Positions 21,900 through 49,127 of a stretch of 64,000 nt of DNA are shown here, piece after piece (position 1 is the stretch's first letter; each line of letters starts with the position of its first letter). The position numbers and the translations under genes were made by a program. Below the pieces are notes generated by a model. The model did not search any database and was not told the DNA's origin. It was given only the letters and a program-made list of their open reading frames with translations. The DNA is from Prostheceraeus crozeri (Eukaryota > Platyhelminthes > Polycladida > Euryleptidae), in the NCBI GenBank assembly GCA_907163375.1, contig CAJQUW010003082.1, positions 1 through 64,000 on the forward strand, written 5' to 3'.

Positions 21900-21949
21900 A
21901 GTAGTAAGTAAAACTCCACTTCTGGACCGCGCAAGATGGCCGCCATCGA

Positions 21950-23380
21950 AGAATTTTCGCTGACGTCCCCCCCCTCTGGAACGACAGAGGTTGTGGTCTG
22001 TCGTGGTGTGCCGGCCAGGTTGGTCCACGTTCACAAAATGTTTGCTGACGTCCCCCCCCTCGAAAACGACAGAGTGTGAGACTCGGGTGTGTTGGTCTCG
22101 TGTGGGTTGACGTGGCCGACCGCCTAGGTTGACGTGGGCGACCGTCTAGGTTGTCGTGGTGGAATGGTGAAACGGACTTTAGATTCGTGATCAGCGTAAA
22201 ATTCTGCATCGGTATGGTGAATTTGAAGTCAATCGGCGAGAAAAAATGTTTCTTCAAAATTTTGACAGAGTTAAAATGTTGGACGTTTTGGGCTGTAGCG
22301 TCAAAACGAAGCATTGGATGGGAAAACGGAGGCCAGATTCGGATTCAGCGTGAAATTCTACATCTGTATGGTGAATTTGAAAGCAATCGGAGAGAAAAAA
22401 TTTTCGCTGACGTCCCCCCCCTCGGGAGAGCTACCTTCGATTTTGGCTTCCAGTGAACGGATTTTGTCGTGCAATAGCTCGTTTGAGAGCTAAGAGTGAG
22501 ACAAATTCACTGAAAGAATCGGCTTGTTCATATCTGTCTTCGTTTAGATGTGAGACGCCATTTAAGATTTTGGGACATTGGCGAAAAACGACAGAGTTAG
22601 AATTTTGGACGTTTTAGGCTCTAGCGTCAAAACGAAGCATCGGAGAGCAAAACGGATTTCAGATTTGGAATCAGCATGAAATTCTGCATCTGTGTGGTGA
22701 GTTTCAAGTCAATCGGAGAGAAAAAATTTTCAACATTTTTCGAAAAAACGACAGAGTTGGAATTTTGGTCCTTTTTGGGCTGTAGCACAAAACGAAGCAT
22801 CGGATGGGAAAACGGAGGCCAGATTCGGATTCAGCGTGAAATTCTGCATCGGTATGGTGAATTTGAACGCAATCGGAGAGAAAAAGTTTCGCTGACGTCC
22901 CCCCCTCGGGAGAGCTAGCTTCGATCTTGGCTTCCAGTGGACGGATTTTGTCGTGCCATAGCTCGTTTGAAAGCTAAGAGTGAGACAAATTCACTGAAAG
23001 AATCGGTTTGTTCATATCTGTCTTCGTTTAGATGTGAGACACCATTTAAGATTTTGGGAGATTGGCGAAAAACGACAGAGTTAGAATTTTGGACGTTTTC
23101 GGCTCTAGCATCAAAACGAAGCATCGGATGGGAAAACGGATTTCAGATTTGGAATCAGCATGAAATTCTCTATCAACATGGTGAGTTTCAAGTCAATCGG
23201 AGAGAAAAAATTTTTCTTCACAAAATTTTTTCGAAAAAATGAGTTAGAATTTTCGCGATGGCTGTGGGCTGTAGAGCCAAAACGAAGCATCGGATGGGAA
23301 AACGGAGGCCAGATTCGGATTCAGCGTCAAATTCTACATGGAAATGGTGTATTTCCAGGTCAATCGGACCTCTAGAATCG
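21950..23380. repeat. subterminal repeat block of the left arm
   Basis: The block contains four copies of GCTGACGTCCCCCCC followed by TC or TCG (about 21959, 22053, 22407, 22892), a short tandem of TAGGTTGACGTGG-type units (about 22100-22160), and roughly 156-bp units sharing GGTATGGTGAATTTGAA, AATCGGAGAGAAAAA, TTTGGGCTGTAG and GGATGGGAAAACGGAGGCC. The mirror block in the right arm (47975-49080) has fewer units, making this side about 327 bp longer. Open frames here follow the repeat period and are not genes. These may be binding sites for a terminal or replication protein, by inference only. Confidence 0.85.
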
Positions 23381-23479
23381 GCGATAGAAGCGTTTTACGT
23401 GTTTGGATGATGGATATTACGTCATCAGCTGATCGCCACACACTATATAAGCTGGGAACCGAGAGAGACTTGTCATTAA

Positions 23480-26400
23480 CCCATTATGTACTGTCGTCCT
23501 AAAAATATGACAGGCAAATGAGCTGATCCTCTATGCAGGTCCATACATGTTCAACAAGTAATGCACTTACCGTCACGTTTGTTTTGAATTGACGAATGTA
23601 TATGCAACAAAAATAAACATTTAAATGTCTTTGTTTATATATTACCTCGATACAAAATCAGCCATTTTCAATCGGCTGATCGCATTTGAACATCTGTCAA
23701 GTAAGGTGAGTAATTACATCCTAGCAGTCATCAAAATAGATAAATGACATACATTCAGTAAAGCTGATTTCTCCATGAATGTGTGTGACAGAAAAAACCA
23801 AAATACCATCAGCTAGATAAGATAAATTTCATTATTGAAAGTGCTGTCTTGTTTTTATGACAATAGGAGTTTGCCTAATGTTTCCTAATTTTGCGACATT
23901 TCGCTCAATTCTCAGAGATATTACATGAATATTTAAGACGTATACATTTGTCATTGTAAGAAAATACATATTTTCATACGTTAGCATTCAGGATTACCAA
24001 ATAAGGATAAATAATGAATATTCACTCTCTAAATATAGTTCAGGTGTCATATTTATATGACAACAGGACTTTCAACAGGCGTTTCTTTATTTTCAGCAAT
24101 AGAGAGAGTGAAACTATGTCGAACAGCCAAAGACTTGGCGAATCAACTATTAGAGAAAGGAGACACGATTAGGAATATTGTTCTGATACCACCTGAACCA
24201 GATTCCTTGACAGATAAAGACGATTTTCTTGATGACGATCTTGTAGGCGCTCCAATAGTGAAGAGCGATTGCGCCAGTACATACGAAGTTGTGTACGAAG
24301 AACAGCAGCTTGATGAAAGTGTAGATATTTCGCAGGAGCCAGAACCGTGAAAAAGCTCAAAACGATTCCAAAGTGTAAAACAAGTTGGACTCGAAAGTTT
24401 AAGGATAGTGACATAAGTTTAGAGAAGTTAGAATTCCAAACTAAACAGGTGCAAGAAAATTTGGAAAGCCATCTTCATGAAATGACTGATTCACCTGTGA
24501 AATTGTTTGAAGAAATGTTTGACTCGAAGGCTTATGAACTACTTGCCATAGAATCAAACCGCTATGCCCAACAGAAGAACATACATAACATAAGTTTATG
24601 CCCAGATGATTTCCGTTCATTTGTTGGCTTCCTTATTTTCTCAGGTTATCATACCTTGCCCCAGCAAAAACTATATTGGAGTCAACGTGAAGATATCGGA
24701 ATAGAATTTGTCAAGAGCTGTTTCTCACGAGATAGGTTCCTGCAAATTAAAAGCGTTCTTCACGTTGTTGATAATGATACTGTTAGCGATGATCCTCGAA
24801 AAGATTTCAAAATGGCTCCGTTGTATGATTTACTGAATAGCAATTTCTTAAAATTCGGAATCCACGACGAGTTTGTCTGTGTAGATGAGCAGATGGTCAA
24901 ATATTTCGGTCATAACTCATTAAAACAATTTATCCGTAATAAACCTACGAGGTTTGGTCTGAAAAACTGGAGTATCAATGGTTCGACAGGTTATTGTTAC
25001 AATTTGAAACTTTATTGTGGTAGGGAGTCTTCATCAGATACCGGTGATTCAAAACTATGTCTCGGGTCGAAAGTAGTCATGGATCTGATTCGTAAAATTG
25101 GAGTATCAGGAGCAAATATTCTGACAATGGACAACTTCTTCTGCTCACATGAGCTTCTGTCTCTCCTGAGAGAAAAAGGAATACCGGCATGTGGAACTAT
25201 TCGTCATAACCGAGCGAATGGGGCACCTCTCAAAGAAGATTCGGAATTAGAAAAAGAAGGGAGAGGCAGCCATGACGCCGTATTTGACGTGGAGAGTGGA
25301 GTTGAATGCGTAAAATGGTGAGTAGAGTGATTGTTTAAACCATTGTATAACTGTGCAATTATGCATGATAACAATTAGCCTATAATCAACTAAATATACA
25401 TGTAATTGCATATACCGGTACAGTGTGTAGTGAATACAGATTTTCTGGCCTACAAATATCAATTACAGTTATAAAATGTATAGAACAATGCATAACATCA
25501 ACAATGATAAATAATAGTGAATAGGTGACTGAAACACTTGAATATTGTCAGATTTTTATTCACTGCTTAGTAAAGGGACACAACCAAAAGAGTTAGATAC
25601 ACCGACAGTTACCATGCCATGTTTTCATTGATAGTAGGCCTATAAAGATACTTTTCTGTCTTCTACAGGAACGACAATAGGTGTGTGTCCTTAGCGACCA
25701 AGTTTCGATATGATCGAACGGAAAGTACTGCCAAAAGGTGTGTCAAGAAGTCTGGAAAAGTGGACGTTTATCTCCCGGGATTGGTTTCACTATACAATAA
25801 GACGATGGGAGGCGTCGACAGCATGGACGGTTTTGTGAATCGATATCGCATTGCTATTTCGAGCAAGAAATGGTATTGGTGTCTTATAACAAATCTAATT
25901 GATGTATGTCTATCGAATGCTTGGGTGCTGCATCGTAAATTACGTGGTCAGGACAGAAATACTATGACACTCCTGGAATTCCGAAATGAGGTGGCTTTAT
26001 AGTATATGAAATCTTACGGAACAAGAATCGGGTATTCTGATGGAAGAATCAGTGACCCAATCTCTTCCCTTCGATTCGATGGGATTGAACATTTCATGCA
26101 AACGCGTGCAAGTCAGCGTCGCTGTCAAGGCTTCCAGTGCTCGCGAAAACCTCTGATCTATTGTCAAAAATGCAATATTACCCTCTGCAAGCACTGTTAT
26201 CCGACTTATCACGTAAAATGACAATGCTATTATTGAATCTCTCAGTTCATCCTGTCAACAACAGAAGTTTTCATTATCAAAATATTATACAATTAACATA
26301 GTACATAAAGATTTTCATAGAAAATGCAAATACATCTTCATCATTCCATTAAATGTCCTATCGTCATATTTTTAGGACATGTCCATATCCTTGAAATAGA

Positions 26401-26511
26401 CATAGAATATATTACTGGAGTAATAGCACATCAATATTGACCTAATTCTGCATAAAACACGTAAGTTTCGCAATAATCTGATAAATAGAACATGAAGCCG
26501 TCCTTAATGGG
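23480..26511 (+). mobile_element. piggyBac element inserted in the left arm
   Basis: The element begins CCCATTA and ends TAATGGG and is flanked by TTAA at 23476-23479 and 26512-26515. The right arm holds the uninterrupted site with a single TTAA at 47875-47878, which proves insertion after the palindrome formed. An internal inverted pair GTCCTAAAAATATGAC (23496-23511) and its complement (26365-26380) is placed asymmetrically relative to the ends, as is typical of piggyBac. It carries one transposase gene on plus, now broken. Confidence 0.93.
24057..26221 (+). pseudogene. piggyBac transposase (frameshifted, nonsense-mutated)
   Basis: The acidic N-terminal part (24057-24350) ends in a stop. 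The main frame (from about 24347) continues one base out of register with the DDE_Tnp_1_7 domain: FVCVDEQM (first Asp), ILTMDNFF (second Asp), then an intron with GTGAGT donor at 25318 and TTCTACAG acceptor ending at 25668. The second exon resumes in phase as WNDNR and carries MGGVDSMD, the third and fourth acidic positions. A TAG at 26000-26002 cuts the frame. The same frame then continues through the C-terminal cysteine-rich domain (RCQGFQCSRK, YCQKCNITLCKHCYPTYHVK) to 26221. There are thus two lesions, a frameshift near the N-terminus and a nonsense codon before the zinc-binding tail. Confidence 0.9.
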
Positions 26512-26515
26512 TTAA

Positions 26516-27579
26516 GACGAGAGCGATTGTCAGAGGTAGGTCGTCTCTCTGAGCTCCGATGATAGCTTCGGACATTCCAAAATCCGGGTTTCTGTAAGAA
26601 ACCGACTTAGAAAATTTCATTGCTGATATCAGCTAAGGCGTCAGACTTAGAGGTTAGCCAGGAGATGGCCTTCGTCTCCAGGCCATAAAATACTCCAAAA
26701 CTTTAAAGGCTTGTAACTTTGCTTCTACAAGTCCGTTTGACTTGATTCAAAAAAGGTTCGGTCGCTATTGACCTGCCCTAAGTGATAGACTACTTATAAA
26801 ATTTCATAAGTAGTGCTAAAAAGTTGAAAAATTTTAATTCACTAGTTTTGGAGGTTTTCTGGGGTTTTCGACCCTGCTGAAGTCAATGAAAGCATTTTTA
26901 ATGATGTCTGAGCCAGTCTTCTCATGGTATAAGCGGCTTTTCACTGAAAGCGAGCAAGACACGGAGAGTTTTGCTGTAATATTCCACTGACAGGGTGTTC
27001 CTTCGGGACGGCGGACGATGCCGTAGTGATAAGTGTGGCAAGGGAGTGTGTCATAGTTTAGACCGAAACCGCTGGGGCAACTCATGTCTCATGTTGGGCA
27101 TTTGACACAGTTCTCAACGTAGCACTTTGAACGCCAATCGGTTGAGTCTTAGCTATCTTGTCATGGGTGGCCTCTAAACATCTCCATTGCAAAACGCTGG
27201 TGAATCAAGCTCTCTCCGGCTTGCTATCAAGCTGCTCAAAGTCTGTCAACCTCTTACCAACTCTACAGGTTTTCATGCCTGGCGAATACTATCATTAAGT
27301 TGAATCTGCTATCAGTCAACTTGAACGTTCTAAATGAAGTTCGGTGTAATACTTCCTTTCGACGGGCGTTCCTGTAAAGGGCGGCGGTGAAACCCGTAGC
27401 TATGTATACCGCAAGGGACATTCGGCAATGGTCAATCTTGTTAAACCTCTCTGCGTCATGTTTGCAAGTGATTGCCTCTGTCTCAACGTAGTATGCATTC
27501 GCGCCAGTGCGACATTTAGCCAGCTGTCGAAGGTTGCCTTATAAACTATCCATTACATACGTTATGAGAACCATGAGTT
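26516..27579. other. non-coding block of the left arm
   Basis: This is the mirror of 46812-47874 in the right arm. No recognised gene. It holds two diverged copies of a G/C-rich motif around CCTTGC----ATC/TAGC/TACGG----CGCCG-CC (about 27004-27045 and 27375-27425, minus sense), roughly 376 bases apart. The frame 26834-27085 minus lies over one copy and is probably chance. Structured RNA or a protein-binding region is possible but not shown. Confidence 0.5.
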
Positions 27580-27780
27580 CTACCTGTCTCTTTCAATGAG
27601 ATGAATTGATGAATGGAATGAAATGGGAGGACACTCACGCGCCACACGCAACATAACACACTTCTCTCTTCCGTAGTCTAACAAGCTCTTTACACATGGA
27701 TCGCAGTCGATTGCTATCCCTGTATCAGAAGTGTAAGCTATCATAATTTTATTTAACACTATTTCATCTACCATCATCAC
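27580..27780 (-). CDS. ORF C, left-arm copy, unknown small protein
   Basis: A ~65-codon frame beginning MMVDEIVLNKIMIAYTSD, with paired cysteines (CDPC, then C in KCVML). It differs from the right-arm copy (46611-46811) by a single residue near the end (E/D). I do not recognise it. Since the arms are nearly identical overall, conservation between them says little about selection. It is transcribed outward, toward the element end, in the same direction as ORF B. Confidence 0.35.
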   Translation of the reverse strand: MMMVDEIVLNKIMIAYTSDTGIAIDCDPCVKSLLDYGREKCVMLRVARECPPISFHSSIHLIERDR

Positions 27781-28088
27781 CCATATGAAATGTTATAAGA
27801 TTTACAAGTTAAACTAAGCGTGCTACTATTTCCAAATGAAAAAGTATACATGGTTAAATCATCCACTGAAGCCCCATTCAAGTAAGTCAGTATGAAAGCA
27901 AAGATAATACGAAATAAAAATTTATTATGGCATGTATTTCAAAAGGTCTTCATCGTCAATATCATCCCAGAGTAGGGTGGTCCAAGCTCCCATAGGAAAA
28001 AATGAAGTATCTCCAATCTTACTTCCCACCCCGGGAAAATGTTCCTTTTTATGAGGAAATTGAAAGTCTCAATTAGCACTCTTCCATC

Positions 28089-28600
28089 CGAGGTCATTTA
28101 GGGGTGCCTCAAGGTCATCAAAGGGTCAAGCATAAAGAAATCATTTTTTTGGCATTTTGGCTCCTTTTCACGAATATTTAGTGAAATGTAGGACAAAATG
28201 AGTCTACTCATGACTTGAGACAAAAGTCTCGAATGGATGGAGCAGAGACTCAAAAGGTCTCTAGTGGCAATTTTTGATCCGAGGTCACCCAGGGGTGCCT
28301 CAAGGTCATCAAAAGGTCAAACATCAAGTCATTTTTTGTGCAAATTTGCTCCTTTTCATGAATTTTGAGTGGAATGCAAGACAAGATGAGTCTACTCATG
28401 ACTTGAGATAAGTCGTGGATAGATGGAGAATAGACTCAACGGGCATCTATTTGAACTTTTCGATCAGTGGTCACCCAGGGGTGCCTCAAGGTCATCAAAA
28501 GGTCAAACATCAAAAACTCATTTTTTGTGCAAATTTGCTATCTTCACGAATTTTTGGTAAGATGCAGGGCGATATAGGTCCACTCATGACTTAAGAACGA
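28089..28600. repeat. left subterminal tandem repeats of the hAT-like element
   Basis: Three direct copies of about 186 bp start at about 28093, 28281 and 28468. Each includes GGTGCCTCAAGGTCATCAAA, a T-rich CATTTTTTGTGCAAATTTG block and GTC(T)ACTCATGACTT. Repeated subterminal motifs are the usual transposase-binding sites of hAT elements, so that role is inferred here. Confidence 0.85.
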
Positions 28601-29281
28601 GGAATGCTAGGATCTGAAGACGTGGCTGGCTTTTGTTTCAATAGTCGACCGCAAATCCAATCGACTAGCAACCAATTGCAACTTCACCAAAAGCTATCAA
28701 TATCATTTCTACCAGCAAGAGTTAAAGCTCCTATATCTCTTCATTTCCAAGTTTTGGAAATAACTCATCTGTCCTCAATACAGACATTGGATCGCTGTTG
28801 TGCATTGAAATAACAGGAGTCACCATAGTGATATCTGTGCAGGAAGCAGATATCTTTGTTTTTCAAATTTTCATTGGAGCTCACAGTCTACAACTTCCAA
28901 AGTTTTTGATCTGTACATTTTCGCTTTGTCTGCGTGTGAAACAAGACGTGCTTGTCAAGTTTGTTAGCGCCGCTTCGTGGGACTGTGCATCGTTGAGGAA
29001 TACATTCAGTGCGAGCAGATTTCGATTGACATCGATTCAACGACGTACGTGGGAAGGTGTTTAGCTGGTGAGTCACAGGCTGTAGAGATAGTGCAGGTTT
29101 TCAGAATTCTTGAAGTCATGATTAGAAGCAATGTCTTTATTTCATCCTTGCACCATAGAAACCAGATTTTCTTCCCTCTTCTTGCTCCTTTAGTCAAACA
29201 GAGCGCAAGCTGATTTCCACGCGATCCACTCCAATGAAGTATTGCTTCGACATACACATTTTCACTTGCAGCTCAGACCAC

Positions 29282-31593
29282 ATGTCGAAAAATCGAATTT
29301 CGCGTCAGTCATCCGACTTCGACCGGTTCCTGGTGGAGCTTCAAGGGAATTTCGTGCTGCCACAGACCACACTCCCCACAACAAAAGAAACTTTGCAGCA
29401 GCTCATGGGGCGGATCAGCAACGGTGTTTCCCTCGCAGAAAGTGCCCGAGAGACCGCCTACGACGTTATTAGGCTTTGGGAGAAGGCTCACCTTCCAACA
29501 CGTGAACATAAGCACATCACCACATCTATATCGAAGCTTTACGAGAGGCTGCGAGAGGTGAAAAAGAATCACATCAGAAGAACTGACACTCAGCAGAAGC
29601 GGGAAGAGCAATTCCGGCATGGTCTAGACAAGCTCTTCGACATCTCCCATCACCGGCTGCAAGAAATCGTCAAAATCGAGGAAGATCGTGAATTTCTCGA
29701 AGATCAAAGGAGTGTGAGGCTCTTGAAGATGGGTGAGGTAGACAAAGAGTATGTATCGAAGAGAAAGAGGAAAGCTGAGAGAGAAGAGGCAGAGCATGGG
29801 AGGAGAAGGAAAGAGATACAGCGGCGAGAGTCACAGAATGCTTTGGTGCAGCTGATGGACGACACTGATGAGGAGAGTGAGGGCAATGAAAATTTCATCC
29901 TTGAAATAGATGACAGAGAAAATGAAGAGGATAGGTCAGAGACTGAGAGAGGAAGGTATTGGGTGACAGTAAGGCTGCCTAGGAAGATTCTGACAACAGA
30001 GGCAGTCTGTGTGAGTGCTGACCGCCACGGGCTTTCAAAGAGGCAGCTATTTGCCACGGTTGCTTCAGTCATCAAGGCATCGACTGCCACGGTGGATGAT
30101 TTCGTGTTATCACCCTCCAGTGCAACAAGGTCAAGGAATGAGGTGAGAGAGAAGGTGTCGAAGACACTGAAGGAAAAGTATTTTGGGGAAAAGAAAGAGA
30201 ACTTGGTAGTGCACTGGGATGGGAAGATTGTGGAAGATTTTGAGCTTCTTCGGGACCGGATTGGAGTGGTGGTGAGCGCGGAAGGAGGGGCGAAGCTGCT
30301 GGAGATTCCCACGGTGGACTCATCGAGCGGTGCAAACCAAGCAGCTGTCGTGCATCATGCGGTACAAGACTGGCAGCTGGAAGATGGTCTTGTTGCTCTA
30401 TCCTTTGACACAACTGCTAGTAACACTGGAAAACATGTAGGGACTTGCGTGATCTTGGAGCGGATGCTCAATAGGAAGCTCATGTGGCTGGCTTGCCGTC
30501 ATCATGTCCTGGAGCTTCTGTTACGCCAGGTTGGAGCAACAGTGTTCGGGAAAACTACCGGACCCTCCAACAGAGATTTCAAAGACTTCAAAGACATCTG
30601 GCCCACCCTCAACAAAGCAAGCTGGTCAACTTTGGAGATACGTGAAGGTTGGATGGCTATTCGGCAAACGTCTGTTCTGGATCAGCTAAGGGCATTGTTG
30701 ACCAACACTAACCAATGGCTACGTGAGGACTACAAGGAAGCGGCAGAAATCGCATATTCACTACTTGGTGGCAGAGATCTGAAAATAAAATTCAGGAAGC
30801 CAGGTGCCTTCCATCACGCTCGCTGGATGGCGAATATCCTCTACTACGGGAAAATGCTTCTCTTCAGCAGGCAGCTTAATTACTCGACGGAATTCGTAGC
30901 AAAACTTCACCGCTTCATGCAGTTTGTGGCTATGCTCTACATAGTGCCCTGGCTCCGATCTCCGCTGACGATCGAAGCAGCGGCTGTAGATCTCGCGCTG
31001 CAGAAAGATCTAATTAGATATTGTTATGTGGATCCAGATGTTGGAGGTGCGGCCAGAGATGCTTTTGGCAGGCATTTGTGGTACCTTACTCCGGAGCTAG
31101 CTGTTTTTGGGCTGTTCTCTGACTCCTTCAGCATTGGAGACAGGGAGGACGCTGCGGCCAAGATACTGCAGCATCCGCCCAACTTGCGGAAGGGGAAGCC
31201 TATTTTCCCGACGGTCATCACGATGGAGACCCGTCTGGCTGACTTCATGAGTGGTAAGAGCTGGACCCCATTCCAACTTCTGGGCTTCAGCGGGGATTGG
31301 CTGCGTAAGCCTGTGCTAGAGTGGTCTCAGCACCAAGAATTTCAGCGGATGGCTAAAATTGTCAAAGGGCTTCAGTGCGTGAATGATCCTGCAGAGCGCT
31401 CTGTAAAGCTCATCGAGGACTTTGCGAGGAAGGTTAGTAATGATTGAGTTTCACTGAGTCTTCTCCCATCCAAAATATGTTGGTTTATATATTGCAGGTC
31501 ACTCGAGATGAGCAACAGCGCCAGTACCTCCTGCAAGTGGTGGAAGCGCAAAGGGAAGACAAGCCAAGCCAAACAAAGGCGGAGTACCAATGA
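29282..31593 (+). CDS. divergent hAT-like transposase, two exons, intact
   Basis: Exon 1 runs 29282-31432, the intron 31433-31497 (GTTAGT...TTGCAG), exon 2 31498-31593, giving about 748 residues. I chose the ATG at 29282 because a CACTTGCAG acceptor-like site lies ten bases before it; an in-frame ATG at 29234 is the alternative. The N-terminal third is charged and helical (coiled-coil-like, about residues 85-225) with no BED or TTF finger seen. Likely catalytic positions are Asp in HWDGK (codon 30218-30220), Asp in SFDTTASNTG (30407-30409) followed by CRHHVLE, the hAT-typical RW at 30831-30836, and Glu in DPAERSVKLI (31394-31396). The 8-bp duplication supports hAT membership, though the sequence is far from classical hAT. 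The full-length frame suggests recent activity. Confidence 0.85.
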
Positions 31594-31683
31594 ATTAAGC
31601 ATAGACTGAGAGTGAAGCGATAGAGTGCCTGTTACAAGAACTGTTGTTGCCTTTTGTTGAAATATAGCACAAAATTGCCATTT

Positions 31684-32000
31684 CATAAGCTTACTACTCA
31701 TTTTCATAGAAAAGATTGGATGACCTTGAGGCACCACTTAACGATGACCAATACTTCTGAAAATTTTGCTAGATTACTTTCTCACCAAGTGGCAAATTTC
31801 AGTGAGGTGGGAACATAGAAATCGAGAAAAAAATGTTTTGGTCATAAGCTTAATACTCATTTTCATAGAAAAGATTGGATGACCTTGAGGCACCACTTAA
31901 CGATGACCAATGCTTCTGAAAATTTTACTATATTACTTTCTCATCAAGTGGCACATTTTAGTGAGGTGGGAACATAGAAAATCGAGAAAAAAATTTTTTG
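31684..32000. repeat. right subterminal tandem repeats of the hAT-like element
   Basis: Two adjacent ~160-bp copies (about 31684-31842 and 31843-32000) share CATTTTCATAGAAAAGATTG, GATGACCTTGAGGCACC and GTGAGGTGGGAACATAGAAA. GATGACCTTGAGGCACC is the complement of the left-end motif GGTGCCTCAAGGTCATC, giving the two ends matching inverted sites. Confidence 0.88.
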
Positions 32001-32018
32001 GTCCACCCTATCCCAGAG

Positions 32019-32486
32019 TCTGCCTTCACACAGATCACAAAAACAGTTCACTTGCTTCAATCGTTCTTCTACCGCGAGCTTCACTTTGTCGATGTACTCC
32101 CACTCCGCCAAAGTTCGTGGCTGGGAGTTAGGGGTGTACCATTCCCATAATTGATGGAGGAATTTGGTGCTGGTGATCTCCATCACATCATCAGTATCAT
32201 ACTGCAGATACTTCCATCGTATGCCTCATAGGTCGGGACACTCCTTCTCACATACACTCTCCTCTTCGTCATCCGCTGCTAATGACAACTTTCTAATGTT
32301 GTCGAGTCGGTATAATTTCTCCACCTTCCCCTTCGTTGGAGCGTTTGGTGCAACGAGCGCCTTTGGCGATGAGCATGGAGAAGAGAACTCCAATTTGTGT
32401 TCGATGTTTTTGGAGGGCTTGTCATGTTGACTGTGAATAATGACTTTGAAATGTTTTCTAATTCTTAAGTATAAACAAGCAACCAA
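32019..32486 (-). pseudogene. ORF B, left-arm copy, cut by hAT-like element
   Basis: Minus-strand twin of 45951-46466. Its frame has a TGA at 32226-32228 (Arg codon in the other arm), while the position that is TGA in the right arm is Trp here. It then reads EITSTKFLHQLWEWYTPNSQ and on to CDLCEGRLWD, where the hAT-like element is inserted, so the last residues before the native stop are displaced to about 27950. This copy is therefore doubly broken. Confidence 0.72.
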
Positions 32487-32713
32487 TCAGAATGAACACC
32501 CAATGAATGATGAATATGAAAGTATATATGCAAAGTGACATTCGTGTCATTTCACACTGTCTTTGAGACGTATAAGTGAAGTGTTCTCTAGCGAATTCTA
32601 TATTTGAGGCGTACAAGTGAACTGCTCTCTCGTGAATTCCAAATTTGAGACGTATTATTTGAGTAAAGTCTCTATCTTGTTGAAGTATCAACCTTAAACT
32701 TGATTTCGTTGAA
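32487..32713. promoter_or_regulatory. bidirectional promoter region, left arm
   Basis: About 230 bases separate divergent ORF B and pPolB. The sequence has ATATATGC/TATATA-like boxes (about 32521), an ATTGG/CCAAT box (about 32482), and three imperfect direct repeats built on GA(G/C)(A/G)CGTA-AA-TGAA-TG-TCTC around 32570-32660. It is the mirror of 45724-45950. Confidence 0.5.
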
Positions 32714-36884: not shown

Positions 36885-37140
36885 TCACTTTGTTTTCCGA
36901 AACACTAAAGTTACGAGGGATTTAGTATCTTTCACATGGATGCACTCTTGTAAACCATTGGTAATTTTGATAGCAATAGAGGGTATAGTTTGTTTGACGA
37001 CGGGGTGATAGAAAATAGATTCAAACATCTTCTCGACTATTCCATATGAAGCGTCTTTATCATGAATGAAATCACGAAAAATGTATTCTTTTTTCTCACC
37101 AACAGAAATAAGTAGAATCAAATCACTTTGGGGCGATCAT
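36885..37140 (-). CDS. ORF A, left-arm copy, unknown small protein
   Basis: A minus frame of about 80 codons, converging on pPolB, encodes ILLISVGEKKEYIFRDFIHD followed by FYHPVVKQTIPSIAIKI. An ATG upstream at about 37176 begins MEINVPQSFEKDMIAPK in a frame one base off, exactly as in the right arm. Function unknown. AATAAA signals on both strands lie near 36860. Confidence 0.4.
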
Positions 37141-37205
37141 ATCTTTTTCAAATGACTGTGGAACATTGATTTCCATGATGAAGATTTAAACAGTTGGATT
37201 CGATG

Positions 37206-38868: not shown

Positions 38869-39052
38869 AAGAAATTCATCGTATAAGTATTCAAAGCATG
38901 TCTTGTAAATCAAATGTGTGTAGTACTGACATGATAGAATCAAATGAACTCGACAAACGCGTTTGTCAAGCTTGATTCTATCATGTCAGTACTACACACA
39001 TTTGATTTACAAGACATGCTTTGAATACTTATACGACGAATTTCTTTTCTCA
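38869..39052. repeat. dyad centre of the palindrome
   Basis: Unique sequence between the two arrays forms a nearly perfect palindrome. It is centred on the 16-bp self-complementary GACAAACGCGTTTGTC at 38952-38967 (axis 38959/38960). The only clear asymmetry is a 4-base difference next to the centre (ATCAAATGAACTC against ATCAAGCTT). There is essentially no spacer between arms. Confidence 0.92.
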
Positions 39053-41225
39053 TTTATTTCTAACGTACACACTGTTGAAACTTTATTTTTCAACTTGTAA
39101 ACGGTTGAAACTTTATTTTATTTCTAACATATAAACAGCTGAAACTTTATTTCTAACGTAAACACTGTTGAAACTTTATTTTTAACTTGTAAACGGCTGA
39201 AACTTTATTTCTAACGCACAAAGCGCTTAAACTTTATTTCCATCATACGCACTATTGAAACTTTATTTTAATCTGTAAACTGTTGAAACGATATTTTTCA
39301 TTTACAACTAGTAGAATGTTGAGTCTAACTTGCAAACTAGTAAATCCTACGATCGTACTTTACAAACAGATAAAACTTTATTTCTAACGTAGACACTGTT
39401 GAAACTTTATTTTTAACTTGTAAACGGTTGAAACTTTATTTCTAACGTACACACTATTGAAACTTTATTTTTAATTTGTAAACTGGTGAAACTTCATTTT
39501 ATTTCTAAAATTCAAGCTGATAAAACTTTATTCTTAACTTGTAAACTGGTGAAGCTTCATTTTATTTCTAACATACAAACAGATAAAACTTTATTCTTAA
39601 CATACCCACTATTGAAACATTAGTTTTTACTTGCAAACTATTGAAACTTTATTTTTAACTTGTAAACGGTTGAAACTTTGTTTTATTTCTAACATACAAA
39701 CAGATAAAACTTTATTCTTAACATACACACTATTGAAACTTTATTTCTAACGTACACACTATTGAAACTTTATTTCATTTCTAACATACAAGCAGATAAA
39801 ATTTATTCTTAACTTGTAAACTGGTGAAACTTCATTTTATTTCTAACATATAAACAGATAGAACTTTATTCTTAACATACACACTATTGAAACTTTATTC
39901 TTAACTTTTAAACTATTGAAACTTTATTTCTAACGCACAAACGACTAAAACTTTGTTTCTAACGTACACATTATTGAAACTTTATTTTTAACCTTTAACC
40001 TGGTGAAACTTTATTTCATTTCTGACATACAAGCAGATGAAACTTTATTCTTAACTTGTAAACTGGTGAACCTTCATTTTTATTTCTAACATATATACAG
40101 ATAGAACTTTATTCTTAATTTGTAAACTAATGAAACTTTAATTTTAACTTGTAAACGGTTGAAACTTTGTTTCTAACGTACACATTATTGAAACTTTATT
40201 TTTAACTTTCAAAACTGGTGAAACTTTATTTCATTTCTAACATACAAGCAGATAAAATTTATTCTTAACTTGTAAACTGGTGAAACTTCATTTTATTTCT
40301 AACATATAAACAGATAGAACTTTATTCTTAACATACACACTATTGAAACTTTATTCTTAACTTTTAAACTATTGAAACTTTATTTCTAACGCACAAACGA
40401 CTAAAGCTTTGTTTCTAACGTACACATTATTGAAACTTTATTTTTAACTTTTAACCTGGTGAAACTTTATTTCATTTCTGTTATACAAGCAGATGAAACT
40501 TTATTCTTAACTTGTAAACTGGTGAAACTTCATTTTTATTTCTAACATACATGTATATACAGATAGAACTTTATTCTTAATTTGTAAACTATTGAAACTT
40601 TAATTTTAACTTGTAAACGGTTGAAACTTTGTTTCTAACGTACACATTATTGAAACTTTATTTTTAACTTTCAAAACTGGTGAAACTTTATTTCATTTCT
40701 GACATACAAGCAGATGAAACTTTATTCTTAATTTGTAAACTGGTGAACCTTCATTTTTGTTTCTAACATATAAACAGATAGAACTTTATTCTTAACTTGT
40801 AAACTATTGAAACTTTAATTTTAACTTGTAAACGGTTGAAACTTTATTTCTAACGCACAAACGACTAAAACTTTATTTCTAACGTACACATTATTGAAAC
40901 TTTATTTTTAATCGGTAAACTGTTGAAACTATATCTTTCGTTTACAAATAGTAGAACGCTTAGTCTAACTTGCAAACTAGTAAATCCTACAATCTCATTT
41001 TACAAACAGACAAAACTTTATTTCTAACGTACACACTGTTGAAGTTTAATTTTAATCGAGAAACTGTTGGAACTTTATTCTATTTCTAACACACAAACAG
41101 CTTGAACTTTATTTTTAACATAAACACTATTGAAACTTAATTTTGTAATCTGTAAACTGTTGAGACTATATCTTTCATTTACAAATAATATAACGCTTAG
41201 TTTAACTTGCAACTAGTAAATCTTG
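39053..41225. repeat. minisatellite, right side of palindrome core
   Basis: Inverted continuation of the left array, with units of the form TTTATTTCTAACGTACACAC and TTGTAAACGGTTGAAACTTT. It is about 520 bp longer than the left array, and segments near 39780-40130 and 40240-40600 look like an internal duplication. The arrays read AATAAA outward on both sides from the centre. Confidence 0.92.
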
Positions 41226-41299
41226 TTCGTCATCGAATCTAACTGTTTAAATCTTCATCATGGAAATCAATGTTCCACAGTCGTTTGAAAAAGATATGA

Positions 41300-41551
41300 T
41301 CGCCCCAAAGTGATTTGATTCTACTTATTTCTGTTGGTGAGAAAAAAGAATACATTTTTCGTGATTTCATTCATGATAAAGACGCTTCATATGGAATAGT
41401 CGAGAAGATGTTTGAATCTATTTTCTATCACCCCGTCGTCAAACAAACTATACCCTCTATTGCTATCAAAATTACCAATGGTTTACAAGAGTGCATCCAT
41501 GTGAAAGATACTAAATCCCTCGTAACTTTATTGTTTCGGAAAACAAAGTGA
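41300..41551 (+). CDS. ORF A, right-arm copy, unknown small protein
   Basis: Twin of 36885-37140, with one residue difference (V to L near the C-terminus). The plausible start is the ATG at 41260-41262, whose 17-codon frame meets TGA; the main frame is +1 relative to it. The same +1 relation occurs in both arms. It converges on pPolB with a 178-base gap. Unknown function, and it may be only a remnant. Confidence 0.4.
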   Translation, partial: SPQSDLILLISVGEKKEYIFRDFIHDKDASYGIVEKMFESIFYHPVVKQTIPSIAIKITNGLQECIHVKDTKSLVTLLFRKTK

Positions 41552-41729
41552 AGTCATTGTGATATGTTTATTGAAATAAAAATATGTGTATGAAAAAGTC
41601 TTTCCACAGATATAGGGAAACGGGCTGACTGTAGGCATATATTCACAAGGAAGAAACGATCTCATGCGATACATAAAACAACCATGTATATCTACAAAAA
41701 GCAACATCAAAATACTGAGTTAAAGTTGA

Positions 41730-44700
41730 TTATGTCAATACATCTCCTGAATGTGGTAGCATGAGTTTTATTCTTTTGGGTGGAGGTATGTTTGTGTCAG
41801 GTTGTCCATGTGGAAGAGATGTGTTATGTCCTATCCAACACCTCTTATCCTCCCATGCTGAAAGCGCTCGTTTCTTGAACGTGTGCGTTTTCACAGTATG
41901 AACTTGAGATTTTAAGATTGTCATATTGACAAACGTTATAGTTTTATTTTTATAGGCCTTCTTATAGGACCGATGTTTCATTTTGTGAACAATGGATTTT
42001 GATATACCTTTAGCACGCTTAATACTATCTGCACATTCTTTTAATTTCATGGAATACATTTTAGGACGGAGGAGAATCATTTCATCTATTTCCTTTCCTG
42101 CTGTTTCATCCTTAAAACAACCAAGTTTGGCTTTATTCTGTATGGAATAGAGTGGATGAGTGGGATTGTAGTTAGATGTGTCGAAATATTTTTCTAATGA
42201 CTTAGCGACTTCATTAAAATTTAAATCTTTTTGAGTGGTAATACCTAAGAAGAAACTATCTGTATCACCACCCAACAAACGAACCTCTTTTACGAGAGGA
42301 CATGGTTTTAGTATTTTATAAAAGAGTTGGTACATTTCAAGCTTAGAGTAATCTAGTACAGCTTGACCAATATAGATGGGCTTACACAACTCAACTTCAG
42401 ATTTTATCATTTTAACACCTACAAGGTCTTCATCGATAATGTCTCTATCAATGAAAAGAGGTGATGAGGTCAATTTGTGATATTTTTGATCATCAATGAC
42501 TAGTTTGTAGTTCATGCGTTTTCTAACATCCTCCATCGTCTTACCAAATAGACTATTATTCTTATACTTATAAAAATATTTTTCAAAATTATTTTGGGCG
42601 AGTGCACGTTTCTGGCTGTTACTATCAATATATGGTTTGAGGAAGGCTTTCTGTCTAAATTTGATGATGCGGTGAACTGACTTTAGAAGCATTCCCATTT
42701 CTAAATAGAATTTTAGTATGCAGAAGTGTACGAGATATTTTTTCTTATCATATTGGATGAGTAAAAGTTTGCGGCATGATTTGTACCTTGGCTGTCCACA
42801 CTCTGTTAAGTTATTATGAAATTGTGACATGAATGGTGAAAACATATCTTCAGTCACTTCACCAGATTCAGGTGCGAGTGGGAAATCAGCAGTTTTATTT
42901 TTAATACTATTTGGATAAATCAAATCCACTTCAAAATAATATCCCCAATCACCTTCATCTGGAATGTTCAGAATGTATGAAGGGTTGGAGTAATACGCAA
43001 GCTCATCTTGATTTAACCAACTAAACTCGGAATGAGGTAGTGGTTTAGACAGTGAACTGCCATATAAATTATTTTCGTCATAGTATTTTAGGTGGATATG
43101 ATCATTACCTACTGTTTTAGATTTTATGTGATGTTTATTCACAAATGTGAGACCACCGCGTATTCCGCGCTCAAATATGTTATACATCTCCGGGTCTTGT
43201 AAGGGATGGATGGTCTCACCAGTCATTTTAAAGGCTGATTTAAAGGACATGGCTGGTAGACTGACAAAGTGGACAGGATCTAATTTGTCTTCTTCTAATG
43301 CCACTCGTCGAAATTCCTGAAAGACATCAGCCAGCAAAATGACATCTAATTCTAAGTAAGCGATCATATAATCGCCAAACGTTTTACAATCAAATTTTAA
43401 CCATGCCTCTTGAGCATGTTCATAGTCCTCTACTGGACAATCTTGACCCGTCAAATCGTTTTGGAATTTGTCAATGGAAGGAAGGGTTGTTTCATTTAGT
43501 TTAGACATTGAGCTAAAATACGCATAGGGAAAGACTCCTTTGCGAGTGATTATTTCATCCGTTAAGTTTGGATAGTGTTTCTTCAAAGTTTGACTATGGG
43601 GAAGAAACTTGAGATTATGAACGAGAGAAGCTAGTGACGCTGACATGAATTGGAATGAATCTAAAAATTTTATTTCGAAGAAGACTGTCTTATTTTCTTT
43701 AGTTTTATCTACTGGTACTTCTGTTGTCATTGCCATGAATTTTTCTCTCGTTTGCGCTATTACATTAAACTGCCACGATTTCATCTGGCTCAACCCTCCT
43801 TTTATGAGCATATGACTGTCATAGCCCTTAAAGTTATGAAAAATGACGGGTAGTACACGACGTCTCAACCTAAGTGAAAAGTTACATTTGGAGCAGAGTG
43901 CGTTTCTAAATTTACCAGTGATGTGATCATGATCACGCACTTTCTTAATTTTATCTTTGGTCATCAAACGTTTTATGACATTTAGGGCACGATGTGCAAC
44001 TTTCAAATTTCTGTTTGTCTTCATTTGACATATGTAGTGACTTACGCTGCAATTGGGAATCATATGATTGTTGAAATTTAGCAGCTCTATCGAGAAATTC
44101 TAGAAATTTTGAAATACAATCTTCACCTTGCCAAGTATGCATTTTGTTTTGTCTATTCCTAAAGTGGTCATGCCATACTTCATAGCAGGATATGGCTGCT
44201 GGCTTGTGGATAATATCATCAATGTAGCATTCTTTGTCTGCGTAAATGACACGCAGGGGACTTAATTCGTCACCATTATCCCTATGTGAAAATATTTTAT
44301 CTTTGGGCATGCGTTCCATTTGTAATTTACCTCGCTTGCACCATTCATAGTGAGTTTCAAATTTATCTTTACTCCAAAAGGAGCGGATGCAGCGGTCGCA
44401 TACAAAATGTTCACCTCTTTTAGAGTGCCCTAAGTGTGTGTACAAGCGAGAGATTTTGGGAATACCACAGTAGTGCCATTCCTCGCTATCATCTTGTTTT
44501 ACTAATAAGAGGTTGACTACACGTTCATAACAAGTTGAACGTGAATTATAGCGGGCACCCTTCAACCCCTTCTCCCACACGTGAACGACAATTTTAATCT
44601 GATTATGTTTTTCGAACGTTTCTACATCTTTGATTTTCATGTTGTTACTATCACAACCTTCAAAGTCTAGTTCATCCTCCCACTGTCTATAGCTATAGGT

Positions 44701-45723
44701 GCGATCTCGATGCGCGTTGATATCATTATAGTGAAGGATGGATAGGACTGCATATTTGTAACACTGTGATTTACAATCGACATTGATGACAGCTTTCTTA
44801 TTATACAACGTTTTTGGTAGTTTAAATGTGCCTCGAGCTGCATGACTTTCTAATAGGGAAATTTTGAATATGGCTGAGTCCACACCATCAAAAATGAGAG
44901 CGCTGTCGCGTTCATTGAATTTATCTACATTTGATTTTAAACATTGAATGTGAAAATTTAGCCAAGACTCGCAGTCTACAACTTCGGTTGCGGAAGAGGA
45001 AGGAACATGAAACTGTATTCTCTCCGTCACTTGACCCGTTTGAAAATCTATTTTAATATATTTTAGTTTAAGGTTGATGAGCGCCTTCATTCTAAAATTG
45101 TCTAAATTGTTGAAGAGCGCTTCGATAATGTTAGAATTTTGAAGGAGCCACTCAGGAAAATCTACTATTTGAGTATTGGACTCCATGCAGTAGTCGCGTA
45201 CTAAATTATTATGTGAAACATTAATGAGGTAGATGGTAGAGGTACCGTTGGTGTAGTGATCATTTGCATGCGTGTGTTGAAGTCTGTGCGAAGATCGCTG
45301 AAAGTGACTATCAAAAGAAAGAGGGCACAAATCGCAAGGAAAGGAGATGTCATCGTCAGAATCAACTTCACCTCCGGAGATTGATGCCGCTTTGCGTTGA
45401 CACACACGTTGTTTGATGTGTCGAAGGAGACTGTGCTTCCTTGTAAACATATGTCCGCAGTCGGCACATTCCCACTCGTTGCATTCCCGCGACAATGTTG
45501 ACATGGACTCGCTCGAGATGGGACTGGTATCACCTGAAAGAGAAATCATTCTATCATCTCTGTTCAAGTCTCAGTGTATTGTTACAAGCTACCTTCACTC
45601 AACAACTCTAAACTTTCCTCGAGAAGGGGGGGCGTTGGTGATGAAGTTGATGCCTGAAATTGAGGAAGATGCTATTAGCCACACGTTTGAGGGAGATGAG
45701 TGAAGAAATTTTCAACTTACCAT
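41730..45723 (-). pseudogene. protein-primed DNA polymerase B (pPolB), right-arm copy, best preserved
   Basis: Mirror of the left copy, with ATG at 45721-45723 and introns 45654-45720 and 45534-45592. The third exon is two overlapping frames: 45533-43951 (zinc fingers, N-terminal region, first exonuclease motif) and about 44063-41730 (HDHITGKFRNALCSKCN, remaining exonuclease motifs, palm with NNLYGSS, NNSLFGKT, GGDTDSFF, and a C-terminus near EDKRCWIGHN). The only break is a +1 shift near 43954-43968, which is also in the left arm. If translated across it the product would be about 1,290 residues, in the usual range of Polinton polymerases with N-terminal extensions. The shared shift may be an ancestral mutation or a recoding site. 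Confidence 0.9.
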
Positions 45724-45950
45724 TTCAACGAAATCAAGTTTAAGGTTGATACTTCAACAAGATAGAGACTTTACTCAAATAATACGTCTCAAATTTGGAA
45801 TTCACGAGAGAGCAGTTCACTTGTACGCCTCAAATATAGAATTCGCTAGAGAACACTTCACTTATACGTCTCAAAGACAGTGTGAAATGACACGAATGTC
45901 ACTTTGCATATATACTTTCATATTCATCATTCATTGGGTGTTCATTCTGA
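45724..45950. promoter_or_regulatory. bidirectional promoter region, right arm
   Basis: Mirror of 32487-32713. It contains GCATATATACTTTC, GATTGGTTGC (CCAAT box) and three imperfect repeats of the form CACTT(G/A)TACG(C/T)CTCAAA. The position between divergent start sites is the main support. Confidence 0.5.
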
Positions 45951-46466
45951 TTGGTTGCTTGTTTATACTTAAGAATTAGAAAACATTTCAAAGTCATTAT
46001 TCACAGTCAACATGACAAGCCCTCCAAAAACATCGAACACAAATTGGAGTTCTCTTCTCCATGCTCATCGCCGAAGGCGCTCGTTGCACCAAACGCTCCA
46101 ACGAAGGGGAAGGTGGAGAAATTATACCGACTCGACAACATTAGAAAGTTGTCATTAGCAGCGGATGACGAAGAGGAGAGTGTATGTGAGAAGGAGTGTC
46201 CCGACCTAAGAGGCATACGATGAAAGTATCTGCAGTATGATACTGATGATGTGATGGAGATCACCAGCACCAAATTCCTCCATCAATTATGGGAATGGTA
46301 CACCCCTAACTCCCAGCCACGAACTATGGCGGAGTGGGAGTACATCGACAAAGTGAAGCTCGCGGTAGAAGAACGATTGAAGCAAGTGAACTGTTTTTGT
46401 GATCTGTGTGAAGGCAGACTCTGGGATGATATTGACGATGAAGACCTTTTGAAATACATGCCATAA
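45951..46466 (+). pseudogene. ORF B, right-arm copy, unknown protein with a single TGA
   Basis: One frame runs from a region after a TTATTCACAG acceptor-like site (about 46005) to TAA at 46466, interrupted only by TGA at 46221-46223, where the left arm has TGG. The protein has a Pro/Lys-rich N-terminus, KLYRLDNIRKLSLAADDEEE, then EITSTKFLHQLWEWYTPNSQ and a C-terminal CDLCEGRLWDDIDDEDLLKY. I do not know its function. The acidic/aromatic C-terminal block with a CxxC looks like a folded domain. It is divergently transcribed from pPolB. Start uncertain. Confidence 0.65.
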
Positions 46467-46610
46467 TAAATTTTTATTTCGTATTATCTTTGCTTTCATA
46501 CTGACTTACTTGAATGGGGCTTCAGTGGATGATTTAACCATGTATACTTTTTCATTTGGAAATAGTAGCACGCTTAGTTTAACTTGTAAATCTTATAACA
46601 TTTCATATGG

Positions 46611-46811
46611 GTGATGATGGTAGATGAAATAGTGTTAAATAAAATTATGATAGCTTACACTTCTGATACAGGGATAGCAATCGACTGCGATCCATGTGTA
46701 AAGAGCTTGTTAGACTACGGAAGAGAGAAGTGTGTTATGTTGCGTGTGGCGCGTGAGTGTCCTCCCATTTCATTCCATTCATCAATTCATCTCATTGATA
46801 GAGACAGGTAG
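46611..46811 (+). CDS. ORF C, right-arm copy, unknown small protein
   Basis: Right-arm twin of 27580-27780. It lies 145 bases downstream of ORF B and in the same direction, so it could be a second product of that transcription unit or a chance frame. The cysteine pair CDPC plus a later cysteine is the only notable composition. Confidence 0.35.
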   Translation: MMMVDEIVLNKIMIAYTSDTGIAIDCDPCVKSLLDYGREKCVMLRVARECPPISFHSSIHLIDRDR

Positions 46812-47874
46812 AACTCATGGTTCTCATAACGTATGTAATGGATAGTTTATAAGGCAACCTTCGACAGCTGGCTAAATGTCGCACTGGCGCGAATGCATAC
46901 TACGTTGAGACAGAGGCAATCACTTGCAAACATGACGCAGAGAGGTTTAACAAGATTGACCATTGCCGAATGGCCCTTGCGGTATACATAGCTACGGGTT
47001 TCACCGCCGCCCTTTACAGGAACGCCCGTCGAAAGGAAGTATTACACCGAACTTCATTTAGAACGTTCAAGTTGACTGATAGCAGATTCAACTTAATGAT
47101 AGTATTCGCCAGGCATGAAAACCTGTAGAGTTGGTAAGAGGTTGACAGATTTTGAGCAGCTTGATAGCAAGCCGTAGAGAGCTTGATTCACCAGCGTTTT
47201 GCAATGGAGATGTTTAGAGGCCACCCATGACAAGATAGCTAAGACTCAACCGATTGGCGTTCAAAGTGCTACGTTGAGAACTGTGTCAAATGCCCAACAT
47301 GAGACATGAGTTGCCCCAGCGGTTTCGGTCTAAACTATGACACACTCCCTTGCCACACTTATCACTACGGCATCGTCCGCCGTCCCGAAGGAACACCCTG
47401 TCAGTGGAATATTACAGCAAAACTCTCCGTGTCTTGCTCGCTTTCAGTGAAAAGCCGCTTATACCATGAGAAGACTGGCTCAGACATCATTAAAATGCTT
47501 TCATTGACTTCAGCAGGGTCGAAAACCCCAGAAAACCTCCAAAACTAGTGAATTAAAATTTTTCAACTTTTTAGCACTACTTATGAAATTTTATAAGTAG
47601 CCTATCACTTAGGGCAGGTCAATAGCGACCGAACCTTTTTTGAATCAAGTCAAACGGACTTGTAGAAGCAAAGTTACAAGCCTTTAAAGTTTTGGAGTAT
47701 TTTATGGCCTGGAGACGAAGGCCATCTCCTGGCTAACCTCTAAGTCTGACGCCTTAGCTGATATCAGCAATGAAATTTTCTAAGTCGGTTTCTTATAGAA
47801 ACCCGGATTTTGGAATGTCCGAAGCTATCATCGGAGCTCAGAGAGACGACCTACCTCTGACAATCGCTCTCGTC
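46812..47874. other. non-coding block of the right arm
   Basis: This mirrors 26516-27579 with scattered substitutions. It contains the same two diverged G/C-rich motif copies at about 46975-47040 and 47350-47420. It also includes the empty TTAA site (47875-47878) where the left arm received piggyBac. Confidence 0.5.
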
Positions 47875-47974
47875 TTAATGACAAGTCTCCCTCGGTTCCC
47901 AGCTTGTATAGTGTGTGGCGATCAGCTGATGACGTAATATCCATCATCCAAACACTTAAAACGCTTCTATCGCC

Positions 47975-49080
47975 GATTCTAGAGGTCCGATTGAGCTGGA
48001 AATACACCATTTCCATGTAGAATTTGACGCTGAATCCGAATCTGGCCTCCGTTTTCCCATCCGATGCTTCGTTTTGGATCTACAGCCCACAGCCATCGCG
48101 AAAATTCTAACTCATTTTTTCGAAAAAATTTTGTGAAGAAAAATTTTTTCTCTCCGATCGACTTGAAACTCACCATGTTGATAGAGAATTTCATGCTGAT
48201 TCCAAATCTGAAATCTGTTTTCCCATCCGATGCTTCGTTTTGAAGCTACAGCCCAAAACGTCCAAAATTCTAACTCTGTCGTTTTTCGCCAATCTCCCAA
48301 AATCTTAAATGGTGTCTCACATCTAAACGAAGACAGATATGAACAAACCGATTCTTTCAGTGAATTTGTCTGACTCTTAGCTTTCAAACGAGCTATTGCA
48401 CAACAAAATCCGTCCACTGGAAGCCAAAATCGAAGGTAGCTCTCCCGAGGGGGGGGGACGTCAGCGAAACTTTTTCTCTCCGATTGCGTTCAAATTCACC
48501 ATACCGATGCAGAATTTCACGCTGAATCCGAATCTGGCCTCCGTTTTCCCATCCGATGCTTTGTTTTGACGCTACAGCCCAAAACGTCCAACATTTTAAC
48601 TCTGTCAAAATTTTGAAGAAACATTTTTTCTCGCCGATTGACTTCAAATTCACCATACCGATGCAGAATTTCACGCTGAATCCGAATCTGGCCTCCGTTT
48701 TCCCATCCGATGCTTTGTTTTGACGCTACAGCCCAAAACGTCCAACATTTTAACTTTGTCAAAATTTTGAAGAAACATTTTTTCTCGCCGATTGACTTCA
48801 AATTCACCATACCGATGCAGAATTTTACGCTGATCACGAATCTAAAGTCCGTTTCACCATTCCACCACGACAACCTAGACGGTCGCCCACGTCAACCTAG
48901 GCGGTCGGCCACGTCAACCCACACGAGACCAACACACCCGAGTCTCACACTCTGTCGTTTTCGAGGGGGGGGGGGACGTCAGCGAACATTTTGTGAACGT
49001 GGACCAACCTGGCCGGCACACCACGACAGACCACAACCTCTGTCGTTCCAGAGGGGGGGGACGTCAGCGAAAATTCTTCG
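47975..49080. repeat. subterminal repeat block of the right arm
   Basis: This is the inverted counterpart of the left block, with the same GGGGGGGACGTCAGC motifs and ~156-bp units, here in three clean tandem copies (about 48360-48830). Copy-number difference from the left arm shows independent expansion or contraction since the palindrome formed. There is no real coding sequence despite open frames of up to 160 codons. Confidence 0.85.
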
Positions 49081-49127
49081 ATGGCGGCCATCTTGCGCGG
49101 TCCAGAAGTGGAGTTTTACTTACTACT

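Follow-up and report, generated by a model that had tools for sequence, protein, structure and literature searches.

What kind of mobile element consists of a single giant palindrome, and how do its two halves remain alike? The question is raised by a stretch of 64,000 nucleotides from the flatworm Prostheceraeus crozeri (GenBank assembly GCA_907163375.1, contig CAJQUW010003082.1, positions 1 to 64,000), referred to as the window, in which inverted repeats tile an element at positions 21900-49127 from end to end. Each arm of this palindrome encodes a type B DNA polymerase (PolB), and the ends are those of a Polinton/Maverick. The structure of the locus, its copies in the host assembly and non-palindromic relatives of ~24 kb led us to the following reading, to which we assign a probability of about two in three: the element is one member of a mobile family whose copies are palindromic from end to end, and this family descends from a conventional Polinton/Maverick resident in the same genome and undergoes a snapback at the time of replication.

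The palindrome is the inserted unit

The element ends AGTAGTAAGT...ACTTACTACT, and its termini read AGTAGTAAGTAAAACTCC (left; 21900-22060, plus strand) and GGAGTTTTACTTACTACT (right; 48968-49127, minus strand), the right terminus being an inverted copy 99% identical to the left. A target site duplication, CTTTTA, abuts both ends (21894-21899 and 49128-49133). Joining of the flanks with a single CTTTTA yielded a 135-codon open frame on the minus strand, which spans the junction and reads like a LINE (long interspersed nuclear element) reverse transcriptase, an assignment made by eye and without database comparison. Ends, duplication and empty-site frame show that the palindrome itself is the inserted unit. 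They confirm a first-pass annotation, made from the letters of the window alone, which had described a palindromic unit with AG...CT ends, the CTTTTA duplication and the rejoining reverse transcriptase frame.

The same annotation held that two inverted arms of ~10 kb make up the whole element. The tiling from end to end stands; the arms are of unequal length, ~17.1 kb on the left (21900-38959, plus strand) and ~10.2 kb on the right (38960-49127, minus strand; about 10.17 kb), mainly because two transposons inserted later into the left arm and are missing from the right one. Left and right arm were 99.6% (1455/1461) and 99.4% (5442/5477) identical over two stretches outside the terminal and central satellites, and 97.3% identical (1214/1248) over the terminal satellite part. 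Terminal satellite arrays occupy 22105-23354 in the left and 48471-48919 in the right arm. Minisatellite arrays of a 29-bp type (37292-38861 and 39053-41143) lie next to the central palindrome (38869-39052), which has a spacerless dyad, ACG/CGT, at 38959/38960 and a single small asymmetry ~11 nt off.

A family of palindromes with common ends and a common centre

The host assembly of 2.05 Gb was searched with the first 29 nt of the terminus and with a 26-mer from the centre, taken from its asymmetric half as that occurs in other copies. Allowing up to two mismatches, we obtained 5,436 matches to the terminus and 774 to the centre (control: 0 in both cases). If most termini are paired, the former would amount to up to roughly 2,700 elements. 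Twenty-six centres were read in pieces: that of the window and 25 others drawn from the top-scoring matches to the centre and pairs of termini. In 14 contigs, window included, each side of the centre carries PolB sequence in mirror orientation. Five more contigs have a junction at which PolB is absent between two similar arm stretches, near arm positions 2,560 and 8,170 (distances from the terminus); C4271, C303 and C3503, three of the five, showed it in both arms. Palindromes without PolB also occur.

Seven of the ten copies read at both ends are flanked by duplications that agree at six of six positions: CTTTTA (window), GTAGCG (C13616), AACGTC (C7170), CTTCTG (C10596), TATGTC (C11075), TTGAAT (C6161) and CTCGCA (C3190). 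The duplications of C5039 and C9291 agree at five of six positions. Palindromy was shown for the window, C13616, C7170, C10596, C5039, C9291 and C4271; C11075 was sampled, C6161 partly sampled, and C3190 counts for its duplication alone. The right end of C7170 is 7 nt shorter, yet it begins AGT. The AGTAGT start is reminiscent of adenovirus, whose genome begins CATCAT and whose protein-primed synthesis steps back one repeat; this fits protein priming without demonstrating it.

These exact duplications bear out the earlier proposal of insertion as one unit. That proposal also assumed a single dimerisation event, a reading which was tested and set aside: copies with the same ends, the same centre and duplications of their own are present in the host genome, palindromic beside non-palindromic kinds, and together the palindromes form a family with a single centre in common. 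Some libraries are known to produce long palindromes as an artefact, but an origin from misassembly or foldback reads appears practically negligible here and was likewise set aside. The flanks are distinct and carry matching 6-bp duplications, in further contigs as in the window, the reverse transcriptase-like frame rejoins, and later insertions are found in one arm only. The existence of non-palindromic copies with the same ends could point to ordinary elements that were rearranged into palindromes locus by locus after their insertion. We set this aside as very improbable, since ten copies on different contigs have one centre with the same asymmetry and the genome holds 774 matches to the centre half.

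Some intervals between termini deviate in size. Those of 43, 62 and 75 kb with exact duplications were considered as bigger, gene-rich forms and rejected as such: samples of two of them (43 and 62 kb) showed palindrome arms and long satellites. The interval of C11075 additionally contains foreign low-GC DNA. In this palindromic copy (C11075:41000-42500, L058), virus-like open frames of low GC content (28%) separate the right arm from the right terminus; they have no similarity to the palindrome arm and possibly represent an insertion into the satellite end of the element. At three sites (C106:39668-41115, C1266:424027-424707 and C1501:4244-4769) facing family termini are 0.5-1.4 kb apart and may delimit tiny non-autonomous derivatives.

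PolB is the only recognisable gene of the palindrome

A Pfam scan identified a type B DNA polymerase (DNA_pol_B_2) with N-terminal fingers, one per arm, as the sole recognisable gene; the PolB pieces of the two arms matched with E-values of 4.3e-15 and 8e-15. In the right arm PolB is broken into two open frames on the minus strand, an N-terminal one with C2H2-like fingers (43954-45570) and a C-terminal one with an endonuclease VII-like finger (41733-44099), in which DNA_pol_B_2 was found on scanning the piece 42801-43886. The left arm has three frames on the plus strand: the N-terminal frame (32867-34483), a fragment with the DNA_pol_B_2 match of 4.3e-15 (34551-35579) and a C-terminal fragment that has no Pfam match of its own and was assigned from its mirror position (35543-36703). 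The break between N- and C-terminal frames is present in both arms of the window and absent from all seven other copies covering the site. A second, small candidate gene without Pfam match is divergent from PolB (45951-46466, plus strand); it is interrupted in the window and forms a full-length open frame in several other copies.

As the first-pass annotation had stated, no integrase, ATPase, protease or capsid protein was matched in ten of the longer open frames outside the inserts, a scan that an intron-split or very divergent gene could escape. Cut-and-paste transposases (P, MULE and the like) were not matched outside the two later inserts either. PolB had no match in NCBIfam and no sequence relative among solved structures; in PHROGs it matched endonuclease VII families only, apart from one weak match for the N-terminal frame. 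Viral contigs contained no relative of the PolB protein and none of the terminus. When a two-sequence alignment served as query, they gave one locus, which matched just 24 residues of the finger stretch. A predicted fold of the C-terminal frame was not used (mean pLDDT 31).

The ratio of nonsynonymous to synonymous differences per site (pN/pS) in the C-terminal part of PolB was 0.18-0.31 in 10 of 21 comparisons, namely those of the pair C5039/C9291 with five other copies, and 0.36-1.43 in the other 11. Judged from the ten low ratios, the C-terminal part is under constraint between subfamilies. Two copies, C7170 and C9562, have a frame-breaking change in PolB and the same centre junction in common. 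Provided that they are separate insertions (C9562 is known without its end sequences), a lineage with broken PolB still spread.

Two sampled non-palindromic relatives of 24 kb carry PolB on one side only

Among the 100 exact termini listed there were 33 adjacent facing pairs, of which 14 were 22-25 kb apart, three 19-20 kb and three less than 2 kb. Their positions were compared by hand with those of the centre; the listed centres are exact matches, so that centres with mismatches, such as that of the window itself, are missed in this comparison. Four of the listed pairs enclose an exact centre 26-mer. In C835 (19.3 kb) and C1276 (19.6 kb) it lies at 0.50 of the length, in C812 (13.5 kb) at 0.55 and in C91 (27.1 kb) at 0.60. 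Two of the three pairs of 19-20 kb enclose a listed exact centre, as against none of the 14 pairs of 22-25 kb.

Two of the 24-kb elements, C321 and C979, were sampled as nine short pieces. Both have the termini of the palindrome; in each, PolB is situated at a distance of ~7 kb from a single end, and sequence at mirrored positions does not correspond. Their PolB sequences are 98.8 and 99.2% identical to the window arm, and they differ from palindromic arms at 2-8 positions in 245-251 nt, compared with 0-12 differences of palindromic copies among themselves. The other half of C321 and C979 is other sequence, and coding-like sequence ~3.9 kb from the PolB-side end is missing from the palindrome arm. 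In C321 this half encodes a very basic protein and an Adeno_PX-like one resembling adenovirus pX (E 7.5e-4, a match below the Pfam cut-off). At the position that the palindrome centre would take in an arm, C321 has an open frame of 133 codons. Two open frames without assignment were among the pieces of this class.

With termini in common and PolB on one side of the relatives, the most fitting interpretation of the palindrome is that of a satellite, derived by mirroring and internal deletion from a Polinton-type element still residing in the same genome. The original notion of a whole Polinton rebuilt as a palindrome has to be narrowed: only the part from terminus to PolB is mirrored, and both non-palindromic relatives sampled have other sequence in the other half. 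Help in trans, which had also been suggested, gains indirect support from elements of ~24 kb with the same termini and nearly identical PolB, and the palindrome was probably moved by the enzymes of the conventional Polinton.

The two arms of a copy evolve in concert

Over the stretches compared, the two arms within each of the 14 palindromic copies with PolB in both arms differed by 0-0.59%, against 0.54-1.62% for the closest other copy and a median of 1.2-4.0% over other copies. On a common stretch of 1.1 kb, the own partner was the nearest relative for 28 of 28 arms, one of them in effect tied, and a tree on this stretch paired the arms by copy in 14 of 14 cases. The tied case is the left arm of the window, with six differences to its partner and six to C3467. 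Moreover, inactivating changes of a copy are often common to both its arms. Pairing by copy and common inactivating changes indicate that the arms stem from one template or were repeatedly corrected against each other.

Correction might also take place in the chromosome. The arms of long sex-chromosome palindromes exchange sequence by gene conversion, and the main rival to our reading accepts the palindromic family as described and ascribes the likeness of the arms to such conversion within the inserted copy; we regard it as a serious contender with odds below even. It is favoured by the target site duplications. Two of the nine duplications agreeing at five or six positions carry a mismatch, though the arms of those copies differ by 0.27-0.52%; these 2 mismatches in 54 positions exceed what the 0-0.6% divergence of the arms predicts and hint that arms stay alike after insertion. 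On the other side, two one-arm insertions in the window were left unconverted, and seven copies keep exact duplications, including C13616 with an arm divergence of 0.48%, all of these being small numbers.

Breakpoints cluster at the dyad

Ten of the 26 centres are intact, and all ten have the same small asymmetry ~11 nt from the spacerless dyad, which speaks for a single origin. The remaining 16 break off at -1 to 32 nt past the dyad and continue with various sequences. Of 15 distinct breakpoints, 14 are past the dyad, all within 32 of ~94 nt (expectation under uniformity ~4e-7) and ten of them within 10 nt; the centre query ended 4 nt before the dyad, so that copies intact to there were favoured and earlier breaks would escape. 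Cleavage or re-priming at the tip of a hairpin would produce breakpoints clustered in this way.

The same breakpoints could result if the palindrome were made anew in each cycle from a one-armed monomer, capped with protein at its AG end and terminating at the dyad on the other side, which would fold back and prime its own synthesis. Sixteen of the 26 centres are joined close to the dyad to differing positions of the opposite arm; this, the tight clustering of the breakpoints and the pairing of arms by copy are all in line with such a course. We nevertheless hold it to be unlikely. The asymmetry common to the ten intact centres has to be either inherited or set by a hairpin end that does not vary, the same breakpoints would arise if a palindrome already formed were cleaved at its tip and lost sequence on one side, and the choice of query bears on their apparent position.

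Two variants of the centre were observed besides. At C91:233208-233259 and C2215:85469-85520 the 26-mer matches both strands back to back, a symmetric arrangement unlike the common asymmetric centre. A second half-centre type stops short of the dyad and gives way to minisatellite; it is found near many centres (e.g. L037, L010 and L041) and recurs about every 245 bp in C734.

A proposed snapback model for a Polinton satellite

The concerted arms and the clustering of breakpoints at the dyad together suggest a phase in which the element snaps back into a hairpin. In the model that we favour, replication would on one occasion have mirrored the terminus-to-PolB end of a Polinton about a dyad, perhaps through the foldback or template switching in protein-primed synthesis that the first-pass annotation supposed. 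The mirror form would be replicated by a Polinton-type polymerase, its own or a supplied one, and synthesis from the AG terminus would yield 20-kb duplexes. The displaced single strand, self-complementary throughout, would snap back to a ~10-kb hairpin with a duplex terminus. Mismatch repair in the hairpin could make the arms identical in every cycle, and opening of the hairpin tip or re-priming could leave the breakpoints at the dyad. Finally, the integrase of the helper may insert the linear duplex, because the mirror form keeps two correct ends.

More tentatively, and with less than even confidence, the model may be extended to Polintons at large. They would then have a self-complementary phase, in which mirror satellites, primed by protein, snap back to a ~10-kb hairpin in each cycle and constitute a stable class of parasites with hundreds of integrated copies that may curb their helper.

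Several observations weigh against the derivation with snapback, in addition to the mismatched duplications. The terminal satellites of the window diverge more between the arms (2.7%) than the remaining arm sequence, and on unequal stretches its left arm is slightly nearer to C3467 (0.54%) than to its partner (0.59%). The ends of C4271, a PolB-less and composite copy, match over 4 nt only. The N-terminal part of PolB appears weakly constrained (pN/pS 0.38-1.64 in 21 comparisons) and has fewer synonymous differences than the C-terminal part, so that the copies may be recombinant. Pooled differences between the arms within copies comprise 75 nonsynonymous and 35 synonymous changes, a ratio of ~0.54, which is not cleanly neutral. 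The nine short pieces read from two copies of the 24-kb class showed no integrase, and no integrase family search was made. No hairpin intermediate was observed. Furthermore, the copies were picked from the best matches and are not a random sample.

Comparison with known systems

AG ends and 6-bp duplications are marks of Polintons. Their gene set, as given in PMC6431247, comprises PolB, integrase, protease, ATPase and capsid-like proteins at a length of 15-25 kb. The palindrome resembles a Polinton/Maverick (polintovirus) in its DNA_pol_B_2-family PolB with N-terminal fingers, its AG...CT ends, 6-bp duplications and inverted termini, and one of its 24-kb relatives also has the Adeno_PX-like gene. 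It differs in that the inverted repeats are the whole element, with PolB once per arm, a palindromic centre and concerted arms, and in giving no match to integrase, ATPase, protease or capsid. As it fails the Polinton gene set, we name it a Polinton-derived satellite and not a Polinton.

Snapback defective genomes depend on a helper. Those of adeno-associated virus are double-stranded and hold part of the parent, according to PMC8235507. Like them, the palindrome is a mirrored part of a relative in the same host with the ends kept. The viral forms are small, occur in particles and have no integrated family, whereas the palindrome is integrated in hundreds of copies with 6-bp duplications. By this analogy, it would be functionally like a snapback defective-interfering or satellite genome that became fixed as a transposon family.

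Foldback transposons (FB, Galileo, Tetris) are similar in that inverted repeats span most of the element and contain internal tandem repeats. They are transposase-based, Galileo being placed in the P superfamily, whereas the arms of the palindrome encode a DNA polymerase. The palindrome also recalls mirror duplications of linear genomes with special ends, in which one end is copied. In poxvirus terminal repeats, Streptomyces chromosome ends and adenovirus left-end palindromes, one end is copied over the other by replication or recombination; none of these is known to have become established in host chromosomes as a family that multiplies, as the palindrome has. Searches of the open-licence PMC literature, to the extent of its excerpts, yielded no palindromic class of Polintons.

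The extrachromosomal replication mode of Polintons is, to our knowledge, undocumented. A family with arms kept alike, one common centre and breaks at the dyad preserves a natural record of how Polintons replicate, against which a hairpin phase can be tested directly. Such a family further suggests that defective-interfering genomes made of DNA can turn into families of transposons within their host; in the present genome the presumed helper, the 24-kb class, persists and can be compared.

Later insertions and surroundings of the element

The right arm represents the empty site for both later insertions of the left arm, which are not part of the element. The first (23480-26511, plus strand) is piggyBac-like, with TTAA duplications at 23476-23479 and 26512-26515 and DDE_Tnp_1_7 open frames. 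The second, of 4.0 kb (27974-32009, plus strand), ends AGGGTGGTCC...GGTCCACCCT, is flanked by the 10-bp duplication ATCCCAGAGT and holds a 762-codon open frame without Pfam match, possibly an unnamed transposase.

A second virus-like stretch with 23-26% GC begins at 57906, reaches the end of the window at 64000 and continues to at least C2552:70000 (L054). It encodes a second PolB with an N-terminal finger, two ATPase-like proteins and several open frames without assignment. One of the ATPase-like proteins matched Pox_A32 (58846-59670, E 5.6e-6), and the other is a P-loop open frame in L054, recognised by eye. The PolB of the palindrome and that of the second stretch are 30% identical over 771 positions.

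A short palindrome (20270-20738), with arms of 224 nt that are 21 nt apart and 100% complementary, is located 1.2 kb left of the element. An 86-bp tandem satellite with ~26 copies occupies 53313-55602. A hAT dimerisation fragment (9789-10472), a weak Tc5-like DNA-binding domain (51078-51959) and a weak GIY-YIG match (52476-52898) are likely ordinary transposon remains.

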